Shown here one piece after another: positions 367 through 64,000 of a DNA stretch of 64,000 bases (positions are counted from its first letter, which is position 1; every line of letters starts with the position of its first letter). The stretch comes from Deltaproteobacteria bacterium RIFCSPHIGHO2_01_FULL_43_49. Its GTDB lineage: Bacteria; UBA10199; SPLOWO2-01-44-7. The position numbers were made by a program, and so were the translations under genes. The notes beneath the pieces are model-generated. The model had not been told where the DNA came from. It saw only the letters and a program-made list of their open reading frames with translations, and searched no databases. The DNA lies in assembly GCA_001798075.1 (NCBI GenBank), contig MGRG01000005.1, forward strand, positions 65,148 through 129,147, read 5' to 3'.

Positions 367-1103
367 TGTTTATTTTAGCTCCAATTTTTTTTCTTATTGC
401 TTGTGTCTATTCCATCGTGGGACTTGCAGGCGGATCTTCTTATCTGGCGGCCCTTGCGTGGATGGGACTGCCGCGCGAAACGCTCGTTCCACTGGCTTTG
501 GTTTGTAACCTTGTCGTTTCTGCCCAAGGAACTTATTCCTACAGAAAAGCCGGTTTCTTTCGTCCCCAACTTTTTTGGCCCTTGGCTTTAAGCAGCGTCC
601 CCTTTGCCTTTTTAGGAGGCCTGACTCCTATCAGCGACACAACATTTTATTTGTTGCTCGGTGTTTCCCTATTGTTAGCGGCAGTCAGAATGTTTGTGTA
701 CCAGCCAAAAGGTACCAGGTACCTTTTACAACAATCTCACAAAAGGTACCTGGTACCTTTTGGAGCTTTACTAGGATACTTGGCTGGCCTCATCGGATTA
801 GGCGGCGGGATTTTTCTAGCCCCCCTCCTCATTCTCTCAGGCACGACCGATGCAAAACAAACAGCGGCCGTAACGGCCCCATTTATCCTTGTTAATTCTC
901 TATCTGGTTTGGCTGCGCATGCAAATCATTTGACACCTTCACTTTTTTCTCAATCGATTCCGCTTATATTAGCTGTCGGTGTTGGTGGGTGGTTGGGCTC
1001 TCGTTTGGGCGCTTATCGCTTGCAGCCCATCTGGGTGCAACGAACAGGGGCTGTTCTGCTAAGCCTTGTCAGTTTCAAAATTCTAGGGAGGATTCCATTG
1101 TGA
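363..1103 (+). CDS. TauE/SafE-family membrane transporter (anion permease)
   Basis: This 246-residue, very hydrophobic protein has about eight predicted membrane segments. It shows the two-fold repeat of the TauE/SafE/YfcA family: IVGLAGGSSYLAAL near residues 18-32 and LIGLGGGIFLAPLL near residues 139-152. Family members export or import sulfite, sulfoacetate and other small anions. It overlaps the upstream Mo-cofactor gene (ATGA) and moeA (GTGA), so it is translated as part of the molybdenum-cofactor operon. A role in oxyanion or molybdate handling is an inference from context only. A pair of 21-bp palindromes (705-763) lies inside the gene and encodes a hydrophilic loop between the two halves. 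Confidence 0.8.
   Translation: MMFILAPIFFLIACVYSIVGLAGGSSYLAALAWMGLPRETLVPLALVCNLVVSAQGTYSYRKAGFFRPQLFWPLALSSVPFAFLGGLTPISDTTFYLLLGVSLLLAAVRMFVYQPKGTRYLLQQSHKRYLVPFGALLGYLAGLIGLGGGIFLAPLLILSGTTDAKQTAAVTAPFILVNSLSGLAAHANHLTPSLFSQSIPLILAVGVGGWLGSRLGAYRLQPIWVQRTGAVLLSLVSFKILGRIPL
705..763. repeat. 23-bp perfect inverted repeat made of two palindromes, inside a gene
   Basis: The left arm 705-727 and right arm 741-763 are exact reverse complements, separated by a 13-base loop (728-740). Each arm is itself an odd palindrome: AAAAGGTACC, one centre base, then GGTACCTTTT. The element is read in frame within the transporter (residues about 115-134, PKGTRYLLQQSHKRYLVPFG) without breaking it. It sits at the junction between the protein's two repeated halves. 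Confidence 0.95.
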
Positions 1104-2338
1104 TTACCGTTGAAGAGGCCAAACAAATTGTCACCAGCGAAATTCCAAAAGGACCAAAAATAACTTTGCCCCTTCAAGAAGCATCTGGCAGAATACTTGC
1201 CGAAGATGTCTTCTCCTTGTTGGATTCTCCTTTGTTTAACGCATCGGCAATGGATGGTTTTGCGATCCACCACGAAGAGACTTATCGTGCCAGCCGCGCC
1301 TTTCCTTCCTATTTTAAAATAACGGGCCTTGTTGCAGCGGGTGATGTTCCAAGCAAACCCTTAGGGAAAAATGAAGCGATCAAAGTCATGACAGGCGCGA
1401 TGATCCCCCAAGGGGCGACCGCGGTGATCCCACAAGAAGAAGTTTTGCCCTCCACTACAACATTGGAGGGCAGGCAAGATCGCTCTGCAACGATTCTGAT
1501 TACAAGAGAGGTGAAAGAAGGGGAACATCTCCGACGCAAAGGAGAAGAAATCAAGCAAGGCGGGCTAGCCCTCTCAAAAAATACCCACTTAACAAGTGGT
1601 GCTATCGGATTTTTAGCATCGCTGGGTGTCCTCAACGTTCCTGTTTATGCGCCACCTCGTATTTTTATTCTCCCCACCGGTTCGGAATTGGTTCGGGATA
1701 TCTCCGAAGTGACACCAGGAAAAATTATGGAAAGTAATTCTTTCTGTTTAAGCAGTGCCATGAGCGAAATGAAGATCGAACCAAAAATTTCTTCACCCGT
1801 TCCCGATGTGAACAAGGTGTTGTTTGCCATCATAGAACAAGCCATCAAAAATTATGATCTTCTCCTTATCACCGGAGGTGTTTCGGTTGGGACCTTCGAT
1901 CTGGTCAAAGAGATTTTAGAAAAACTCAATGTCAAAACTTTGTTTTGGCAAGTTGCTCAAAAACCGGGAAAGCCCCTTTATTTTGGAAAATGCGGTTCCA
2001 CCCTTGTTTTCGGATTGCCAGGAAATCCGGCCTCCAGCCTCGTCTGTTTTTATGAATATGTGCGTCCCGCCATCTTAAAATGGCTAGGCTATCAGGACTG
2101 TTTTCTTTCACAAGATAGGGCAAGGCTCGTAAACTCCTTTTCCAAAAAAGAGGGGAGAACCCATTTTATTCGAGCACGAACTGAAAAAAAGAATGGCAAC
2201 TTTTGGGTGCACGTTCCAGAAGGACAGGAATCCCATCGAATGCAATCCTTCGCAGAGGCAAACTCTTTTTTAGTGGTTCCCCAGGAAATCACAGAACTCA
2301 AAGAGGGTGAGGAAGTCACCATTCATTGGCTACCATGA
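1100..2338 (+). CDS. moeA: Molybdopterin molybdotransferase MoeA
   Basis: MoeA inserts molybdate into adenylylated molybdopterin to give mature Mo-cofactor. The GTG at 1100 is chosen because an AGGGAGG ribosome site lies just upstream and it overlaps the previous stop as GTGA. The reading frame extends further upstream but that part only shadows the transporter gene. The 412 residues match the family length. Visible motifs are NASAMDGFAI (N-terminal domain), VMTGAMIPQGATAVIPQE, LLITGGVSVGTFD with the conserved Asp, and GLPGNPASSLVCF (active-site Pro/Ser loop), followed by the C-terminal beta-barrel. It is the central gene of the Mo-cofactor operon and overlaps moaD by ATGA. Confidence 0.97.
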   Translation: MITVEEAKQIVTSEIPKGPKITLPLQEASGRILAEDVFSLLDSPLFNASAMDGFAIHHEETYRASRAFPSYFKITGLVAAGDVPSKPLGKNEAIKVMTGAMIPQGATAVIPQEEVLPSTTTLEGRQDRSATILITREVKEGEHLRRKGEEIKQGGLALSKNTHLTSGAIGFLASLGVLNVPVYAPPRIFILPTGSELVRDISEVTPGKIMESNSFCLSSAMSEMKIEPKISSPVPDVNKVLFAIIEQAIKNYDLLLITGGVSVGTFDLVKEILEKLNVKTLFWQVAQKPGKPLYFGKCGSTLVFGLPGNPASSLVCFYEYVRPAILKWLGYQDCFLSQDRARLVNSFSKKEGRTHFIRARTEKKNGNFWVHVPEGQESHRMQSFAEANSFLVVPQEITELKEGEEVTIHWLP

Positions 2339-2574
2339 ATACACGCATTTTACTTTTTGCAGGCCTTAGAGAACGTTTAAACAAAAGCGAAGTTCAACTG
2401 GACCTTCCTCAAGGGACAAAGGTTTGTGAAATCCTCCCTATCTTGTTTGGTGAGGAAGCTGCAAAGTTAACAAGGTGCACATTATTCGCCATCAATCAGA
2501 ATTATGTAACACCCGAAACAGAATTGCACGATGGGGATGAGCTGACTTTAATTCCACCCGTGGCAGGAGGGTAA
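2335..2574 (+). CDS. moaD: Molybdopterin synthase small subunit MoaD
   Basis: A 79-residue beta-grasp protein that ends in the essential Gly-Gly (PPVAGG), which is thiocarboxylated and donates sulfur to precursor Z inside the MoaD-MoaE heterotetramer. The N-terminus MNTRILLFAGLRERL matches the family. The ATG at 2335 overlaps the moeA stop (ATGA). A TTG nine bases earlier is possible but less likely. The stop abuts the moaE start. Activation requires an E1-like MoeB, and a candidate lies at 37176-37979. Confidence 0.95.
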   Translation: MNTRILLFAGLRERLNKSEVQLDLPQGTKVCEILPILFGEEAAKLTRCTLFAINQNYVTPETELHDGDELTLIPPVAGG

Positions 2575-62012: not shown

Positions 62013-62597
62013 ATGGCGCATTTGCGGGATTATTATGCTGTTTTGCAGGTCTCCCCACAGGCGGGTGGCGCCATCATCAAAGCGGCCTACTATACACAAC
62101 TAAAAACTTCCAAAAAACACCCGGACCTGGGCGGCTCTCACGAAGAAGCGGTCCTTCTCAATGAAGCCTATGAAGTCTTGAGCGATCCTTTGAAACGCAA
62201 AGAATATGATCAAAAATTTTTCAAAGGAAAACACCTGAAAGATTATTCACCCACCATGAACCCTTTTCAACCTGATATAGAAAAAAGAAGGGCGGTGCGT
62301 GTTCCTTTGCAAAAACCTCTCCGCTTTCGAAAACAAAACATTCCTCAATGGGTAGAGGCGCAACTTCGTGATATCTCTCTTCTGGGTGCCTGTTTTCGCT
62401 CTCTCACAGAATTCAAAAAGGGGGAGTTAATAGATCTTGATGTTTCAAAAGAGCCCGCACTCAAAACAAAGGCCCAAGTCCGATGGGTAAGACAAATCCC
62501 CCAACGCTTTGGAAAGCCGCTTTATGAGGGGGGCGTTGAATTCGAGAAGTTGGACCCTATCGTTTTAGAACAATTCCTAAAACAATCGAGTTACTGA
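62013..62597 (+). CDS. J-domain/PilZ-domain fusion protein
   Basis: A 194-residue protein. Residues 5-68 form a J-domain (YYAVLQVSPQAGGAIIKAAYYTQLKTSKKHPDLGGS...EAYEVLSDPLKRKEYD) with the HPD motif needed to stimulate DnaK. Residues about 90-190 resemble PilZ, the cyclic-di-GMP-binding fold: RRAVRVPLQKPLRFR supplies the Arg-rich start and DISLLGACF the D.S..G motif. This suggests cyclic-di-GMP-dependent recruitment of Hsp70. No DnaK gene is nearby. It is convergent with the histone-fold gene with a 7-base overlap. Confidence 0.85.
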   Translation: MAHLRDYYAVLQVSPQAGGAIIKAAYYTQLKTSKKHPDLGGSHEEAVLLNEAYEVLSDPLKRKEYDQKFFKGKHLKDYSPTMNPFQPDIEKRRAVRVPLQKPLRFRKQNIPQWVEAQLRDISLLGACFRSLTEFKKGELIDLDVSKEPALKTKAQVRWVRQIPQRFGKPLYEGGVEFEKLDPIVLEQFLKQSSY

Positions 62598-62776
62598 GCA
62601 ACGTCACGGTCCATGACCGTTTTTCTGCCATCTTGCTTGGCATGCTCAATCGCTTGATCCAGCGCTTTGGCAACAACGGCGGTCAAGGCTGGCATCGCGT
62701 TTGCTGAAGTATTCATGTCAGCCTTTTCCTTGATGTATTTTTTGACCTTTGAGGCCACGACTAAGAGGTCGCTCAT
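62591..62776 (-). CDS. Bacterial histone-fold protein, 61 residues
   Basis: A short basic protein with the layout of a single histone fold. Helix 1 is VVASKVKKYIKEK, followed by loop 1 around ADMNTSANAM, helix 2 PALTAVVAKALDQAIEHAKQ, and then loop 2 with GRKTVMDRDV. The RKT...D signature equals that of archaeal histones (RKTIKAEDI) and of Bdellovibrio Bd0055. The third helix is truncated (two residues after RDV), as described for bacterial singlet histones. Ribosome site AAGGAG. It lies 14 bases after pfkB on the same strand. DNA binding is expected, but the mode (bending or end-on coating) cannot be read. Confidence 0.85.
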   Translation of the reverse strand: MSDLLVVASKVKKYIKEKADMNTSANAMPALTAVVAKALDQAIEHAKQDGRKTVMDRDVAQ

Positions 62777-62790
62777 GTGTTTCTCCTTGG

Positions 62791-63714
62791 TTACAAAATT
62801 ATTGTTTCTTCAAAATGACTTAATGTCTTGAACGCTTGAAACCGTTCATTAATCTCCTTTTTATTTAAAAGTCTCATTCTGTCCAGTCCAAAATCTTCCA
62901 CCTGAAAACTGGCCATGACAGACCCACAAATCACTGCCCTTTTCAGATTGGGCTCACTCATATCACCTTTGTGTGTTGCCAGATACCCCAAAAAGCCACC
63001 GGCAAAGCTGTCGCCAGCACCGGTTGGGTCTTTGATGTCTTCCAAAGGATAGCCAGGGGCCCAGAAGGTCAACGAATCGCTAAAGAGCATCGAGCCGTAC
63101 TCTCCCCGTTTGATGACAACAATTTTTGGACCCCATTCCAAAACCTTTTTGGCTGCTTTGACCAAGTTGTGTTCTTTGGTCAATTGTCTTGCCTCTGATT
63201 CGTTGACAAAAAGGATATCGACTTTTTTCAAAGTACGTTTCAGCGCTTCCAATTTTCCCTGAATCCAAAAATTCATGGTATCCATTGCTATCCACTTTGG
63301 AGCTTTAACCTGCTCTAAGACATTGAACTGAAGTTCTGGATCAATATTGGCCAAAAAAACATATGGCGATTCTTGAAAATTTTTGGGCAAAATTGGCTTA
63401 AATTGAGCAAAGACATTGAGATGCGTTTCTAATGTTTGTGCTTCATTGAGGTCATAGCCATAGCGACCTTTCCAATGAAAGGTTTTTCCGTCGGCTTGCA
63501 CTTGAAGGCCGGTGAGATCGACATTTCTTTCCTTCAAAAAAGCTATCTGTTGTTGATCAAAATCACTTCCCACCACACCGACCAACCGAACTGGAGTGAA
63601 AAAGGAGGCCGAGGCCGAAAAGTGGGTAGCCGCGCCCCCCAAAACCCTCTCTTTTTTCCCGAAGGGGGTTTCCAAATCATCGTAGGCAACCGATCCAACA
63701 ACAAGGATACTCAT
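62791..63714 (-). CDS. PfkB-family carbohydrate/nucleoside kinase
   Basis: A 307-residue ribokinase-fold kinase. GSVAYDDLETPFGKKERVLGGAATHFSASA is the N-terminal substrate-binding segment with the GG hinge. KDPTGAGDSFAGGFLGYLA is the PfkB signature with the catalytic Asp. The substrate may be a sugar or nucleoside. The ATG at 63714 (MSILVVGSVA) is selected over an upstream start by homology. It precedes the histone-fold gene by 14 bases and follows the XRE-type gene by 47. Confidence 0.9.
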   Translation of the reverse strand: MSILVVGSVAYDDLETPFGKKERVLGGAATHFSASASFFTPVRLVGVVGSDFDQQQIAFLKERNVDLTGLQVQADGKTFHWKGRYGYDLNEAQTLETHLNVFAQFKPILPKNFQESPYVFLANIDPELQFNVLEQVKAPKWIAMDTMNFWIQGKLEALKRTLKKVDILFVNESEARQLTKEHNLVKAAKKVLEWGPKIVVIKRGEYGSMLFSDSLTFWAPGYPLEDIKDPTGAGDSFAGGFLGYLATHKGDMSEPNLKRAVICGSVMASFQVEDFGLDRMRLLNKKEINERFQAFKTLSHFEETIIL

Positions 63715-63761: not shown

Positions 63762-64000
63762 TTAAGAAAGGAGTTTTTCCAATTTGCAATGAAGAATCTT
63801 GGCAAGAGCCTTGGCCGATTTTAAACCAATACCTCTTTTTCCTTTTTCCATTTCAGAGATGTGATGCTGTTTGAGTCCTGCCTTTTGGGCCAGCTCTGCT
63901 TGGCTCAAGTTTTCACGCAATCGATAGGCTTTTAAAGAACCTCCAGGTGTTCCAATCATCGGATTTTTCTTTTGTAATTCTTTTTTGACGACAGAAGCAG
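63762..64000 (-). CDS. XRE-family helix-turn-helix regulator, partial at window edge
   Basis: The frame is open to the right end of the window. The C-terminal domain is a Cro/C1-type helix-turn-helix: LKAYRLRENLSQAELAQKAGLKQHHISEMEKGKRGIGLKSAKALAKIL. An in-frame ATG at 63959 is preceded by further coding-like residues (ASVVKKELQKKNP), so the true start is probably outside the window. Such short proteins are often antitoxins of HigBA-type modules or operon regulators. Confidence 0.85.
   Translation of the reverse strand, partial: ASVVKKELQKKNPMIGTPGGSLKAYRLRENLSQAELAQKAGLKQHHISEMEKGKRGIGLKSAKALAKILHCKLEKLLS

Follow-up and report, generated by a model that had tools for sequence, protein, structure and literature searches.

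A bacterial-dimer histone of the Bd0055 type, its gene neighbourhood and its FtF-type paralogue in the same genome

Histones are found in fewer than 2% of bacterial genomes (PMC10627809, PMC12701072), and those characterised in depth are few, chiefly HBb, a DNA bender, and HLp, a DNA wrapper. The α3 histones include, among others, the FtF histones, which form tetramers and carry R48 and N52 (HMM numbering), and the bacterial dimers, which lack both residues, have a shortened α2 and an α3 of 3-4 residues, and carry an RKT...D motif (PMC11390915). A 61-residue open reading frame near the end of the window, by which we mean the whole 64,000-nucleotide stretch analysed here, was originally predicted to encode a histone like Bdellovibrio Bd0055, placed behind a PfkB kinase gene and possibly an XRE regulator. 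The locus raises the questions of what kind of histone, if any, this frame encodes, and whether its neighbours say anything about its function. The features concerned are as follows.

62591..62776, minus strand: histone, bacterial-dimer α3 type, 61 aa, with helices at residues 2-19, 27-48 and 56-59 (sequence matches and model)
62777..62790, minus strand: 14-nt spacer from the pfkB stop to the histone ATG, with an AAGGAG ribosome-binding site (sequence)
62791..63714, minus strand: pfkB-family sugar kinase, 307 aa, upstream of the histone (Pfam PF00294, E=1.4e-28; start from homologues)
62013..62597, plus strand: J-domain and PilZ protein, 194 aa, convergent with the histone (Pfam DnaJ and PilZ, both above cut-off)
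62606..62620, plus strand: terminator-like hairpin and T run for the J-PilZ transcript (near-palindrome followed by TTTT; consensus match only)
63762..63959, minus strand: XRE/HTH_3 domain, 3' part of a longer frame (profile match and extension of the frame past the window end)

The geometry of the locus is as originally described: the histone frame follows the pfkB stop on the same strand, and its 3' end shares 7 bases with the convergent J-domain/PilZ gene. Its product, which starts from an ATG with the Shine-Dalgarno-like AAGGAG immediately 5' of it, is MSDLLVVASKVKKYIKEKADMNTSANAMPALTAVVAKALDQAIEHAKQDGRKTVMDRDVAQ. The most likely start of pfkB is the ATG at 63714, where its homologues begin, rather than the TTG of a 332-aa frame. 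pfkB and the histone gene are probably co-transcribed, and the histone would be transcribed from the pfkB side; a scan directly 5' of the histone found no strong sigma-70 promoter, its yield being at the level of shuffled sequence. The putative J-PilZ terminator is embedded in the KTVMDRD codons of the histone, and the number of such elements in the region is about that expected from shuffling.

When the product was compared with the PDB by phmmer, Bd0055/HBb (8fvx, 8cmp) was the top match with E=1.8e-13, and HLp (4e-5) and HTkC (1.3e-4) followed far behind. An AlphaFold2 monomer built with 34 homologues (pLDDT 89) has three helices, with a shortened α2 and an α3 of just 4 residues (56-59), and Foldseek placed HBb structures at ranks 1 to 5 against the PDB, followed by HLp and HTkC. 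The predicted likeness to Bd0055, with a GRKT...RD loop and a truncated third helix, was thus borne out by sequence and by model. S9, K10, K12, R51, K52, T53, R57 and D58 are invariant across the 34 homologues, so that the RKTxxxxD loop and the conserved α1 lysines K10 and K12 are both in place. Generic profiles score the protein lower: it reaches 16.2 bits with Pfam CBFD_NFYB_HMF (PF00808; gathering cut-off 21.4) and 27.4 bits with NCBIfam archaea_histone (cut-off 50), and because both scores lie under the cut-offs, automatic annotation would probably miss this histone. These two scores are also what could be said for an unrelated three-helix protein that merely resembles a histone. Such a protein is barely conceivable, given the match to Bd0055, the five top structural matches to HBb and the invariance of the RKT...RD and S-K.K motifs; the refuting outcome named originally, placement in an unrelated helical family, did not come about. 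The low PF00808 score reflects the limit of a generic model for the bacterial-dimer subfamily.

The gene is also maintained as a protein-coding gene. Three further members of the window genome's family have an 80%-identical histone gene, and comparison with the homologues gave dN of 0.15-0.16 with synonymous sites saturated or near-saturated (dS is inestimable for most gene pairs owing to saturation). Because dN is this low while dS is at or near saturation, the window histone is under purifying selection. The match to Bd0055, the recurrence in the family and the low dN together rule out a chance reading frame. A phage origin was considered as well and rejected, as tblastn returned zero matches in 50,697 phage records.

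Which of the α3 subtypes the protein belongs to can be read from a few positions. The R and N of the FtF signature R-x3-N-x-R-x-T-x4-D correspond to H45 and D49 in the window histone, which reads H-x3-D-x-RKT, the dimer-type state; the FtF signature is absent. In a tree, which rests on a short alignment and has many open forks, it falls among dimer-type histones from its class and is separate from the FtF group. The archaeal nucleosomal histones are recognised by an α3 of about 10 residues, compared with 4 here. Judged by its sequence, the window protein is a bacterial-dimer α3 histone, an ordinary member of a known family.

The type member of that family is Bd0055/HBb of Bdellovibrio bacteriovorus (PDB 8FVX, 8CMP, 9EZZ, 9F0E). 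The two proteins are similar in length (61 aa in the window, 64 aa in HBb) and share the short α2 and α3, the RD clamp R51-D58 with D49, the KT loop, S9-K10 and the lack of a tetramerisation histidine at position 48. They differ in that identity over the structural alignment is about 55%, the window protein has A8 for T8 and A38 for L38 and is three residues shorter at the C-terminus, and its gene lies beside pfkB, while genomes of its class often carry an FtF-type histone as a second one. The α3 fold and the overall length recur in HLp of Leptospira perolatii (FtF; PDB 9QT0), but its R-x3-N is not found in the window protein. HTkC of Thermococcus kodakarensis (archaeal FtF; PDB 9F2C) likewise has the α3 fold, with 36% identity over the structural alignment. 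HMfA/HMfB, the archaeal nucleosomal histones, have the RKTxxxxD loop as well, whereas their α2 and α3 are longer and the window protein lacks the hypernucleosome contacts.

The main DNA contacts of HBb are N22, R57, S9, T53, T8, S24, K10, K12, K52 and K16 (PMC11317129), and nine of these ten residues are identical in the window histone, T8 being the exception. By analogy with HBb, DNA bending as a dimer is the behaviour to be expected. The protein would homodimerise through the α2 helix; its L1-L2 loops (N22, T23, S24, K52, T53, R57) and the start of α1 (S9, K10, K12, K16) would hold on to the phosphate backbone at consecutive minor grooves, and the dimer would in this way bend DNA without sequence preference. 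The replacement of the HBb dimer-core residue L38 by alanine counts against a dimer. On balance, the window gene very probably encodes a genuine singlet histone of the bacterial-dimer α3 type that serves as a DNA-bending, architectural nucleoid protein. It would do so beside the products of four HU/IHF-family genes and an FtF-type histone, of the tetrameric, DNA-wrapping kind.

This second histone of the window genome has 59 residues (G000:C14:183491-183670; also L002:1501-1680 and L112:7992-8171) and is 50% identical to the first. Among solved structures it is closest to HLp (46 bits, versus 37.6 for Bd0055), which is also the top Foldseek match of its predicted fold, and it carries the FtF signature as R45, N49, R51, T53 and D58. 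In many families the FtF gene adjoins a monofunctional transglycosylase gene, with dCTP-deaminase-like and ferredoxin-like genes nearby; the respective clusters were found at 13, 11 and 12 of 20 loci. Genes of a second FtF clade have MutY-like and ribonucleotide-reductase-like genes in their vicinity, names that come from reading the sequences rather than from profiles.

The two histone genes also differ in codon usage. The window histone is unremarkable in this respect, at the 35th percentile of length-matched segments from the window and below about 90% of ribosomal-protein segments, whereas the FtF paralogue is ribosomal-protein-like (84th percentile); with 57-58 codons in each gene, the comparison is a hint only, and a weak one. 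High expression of the window histone finds no support in these values, and, since the FtF paralogue scores higher, the dominant histone of the genome may not be the window gene. The dimer type may even be dispensable in this family, because a 95%-complete genome of the same family (G002) has only the FtF type.

Another reading is that the window protein has the histone fold but has taken on a regulatory or accessory task of local scope, perhaps together with PfkB or the XRE protein, instead of organising chromatin globally. Its tight spacing to pfkB is kept in four genomes, its codon usage is ordinary, and the stably syntenic FtF histone could be the one that mainly builds chromatin. We nevertheless regard a local role as very unlikely because the neighbourhood is unstable. 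The histone gene immediately follows pfkB in G000, G003, G004 and G005 only, all of one family (f1); outside it the histone has other neighbours, and in five genomes (G009, G014, G018, G027, G030) the pfkB orthologue is on a different contig from the dimer-type histone. In a further f1 genome (G001, contig L136), J-PilZ (910-1530, plus strand) overlaps pfkB (1498-2421, minus strand) directly, with no histone between them; this assembly is 67% complete, although the site itself is intact, and the empty site is either ancestral or a clean loss. The DNA-contact residues, on the other hand, are conserved whatever the neighbourhood. Nor does the window histone show the conservation of a neighbour across families by which operon-linked histones, such as those with RdgC or IHF, are recognised. 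On the class-wide comparison and the empty site we rejected a functional unit of pfkB and histone; the linkage whose conservation was originally proposed for checking does not extend past these four genomes. The neighbourhood is a local, family-level accident and no functional module, and the empty site warns against inferring function from the neighbours of histone genes. In families f1 and f11 the histone has an RluB-like pseudouridine synthase gene and proBA-like genes close to it, which may mark an ancestral position.

The XRE gene fared no better as a regulator of the histone. Its frame continues beyond window position 64000 into an N-terminal extension, giving 124 aa in full (L092:9110-9484), and it adjoins an 87-aa frame outside the window (L092:9500-9763) that resembles RelE/StbE weakly (E=0.0027, short of the cut-off). 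The two are probably a toxin-antitoxin pair upstream of pfkB, with XRE as the antitoxin. No such gene was found beside the histones of relatives, and we therefore rejected XRE as a histone regulator.

More interesting than the neighbourhood is the persistence of histones throughout the class and their pairing with the FtF type. We surveyed 31 near-complete genomes of the class (completeness ≥90%), assigning the histone type at each place from the relative scores of a dimer and an FtF profile. One or more histone matches were present in 29 of them; 28 carry an intact histone, and the other has just a fragment of 24 residues where a contig begins. The original view of bacterial histones as sparsely distributed thus holds for Bacteria overall but not for this class. 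Canonical dimer and FtF types occur together in seven genomes (G000, G003, G005, G009, G012, G017, G032), and FtF together with a tailed GxD type in two further ones; seven have the dimer type only and eight the FtF type only, and the rest have the tailed type only, the fragment or none. The tailed type, a third type in the class, reads 'GRKTVMGRD' in open frames of about 95-180 codons (L021, L023, L030, L088, L089), and in the tree it clusters with the N-terminal halves of the fused Bacteriovoracia histones described below.

HU/IHF genes were found in all 40 genomes searched, which rules out the replacement of HU by the histone. Among characterised bacteria, B. bacteriovorus has two histones and HU, and Leptospira a single histone but none of the canonical NAPs (PMC12701072). 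A bender-plus-wrapper pair of histones in one bacterium was not described in the main texts of the literature we searched. We tentatively suggest that chromatin in this class could combine a dimeric bender and a tetrameric wrapper in the same cell, along with HU/IHF, the two histones sharing out the work or forming mixed oligomers in a way not so far described in bacteria. In a rival reading, the window histone would work mainly with its FtF paralogue, forming hetero-dimers or capping the FtF tetramers, rather than bending DNA by itself. The presence of both types together in at least seven of the surveyed genomes and the 50% identity of the two proteins are in line with this, but each type also occurs alone in the dimer-only and FtF-only genomes counted above, so joint action cannot be general, and we consider it quite unlikely as the main mode. 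The stand-alone dimeric bender remains our preferred reading; the window histone is real and of a kind already known. With both types in one genome, and at least one of them retained by almost all genomes of the class, the two modes can be compared directly using proteins of a single organism.

Related histones were also seen in other bacterial groups. Histones in Chlamydiota MAGs (L037, L041) are up to 62% identical to the window protein, a likeness for which inter-phylum transfer or mis-binning is a possible source. In Bacteriovoracia MAGs, two Bd0055-type histone folds are fused in one uninterrupted frame of about 130 aa at six loci (L047:4779-5190, L054:816-1208, L056, L057, L058 and L059). 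The prokaryotic pseudodimers singled out in the literature are DUF1931 proteins, which are said to be without DNA-binding residues (PMC12701072); both halves of the Bacteriovoracia doublets carry the S-K.K and RKTxxxxD motifs, and a full-length doublet match was present in about 37 of the 97 Bacteriovoracia genomes searched.
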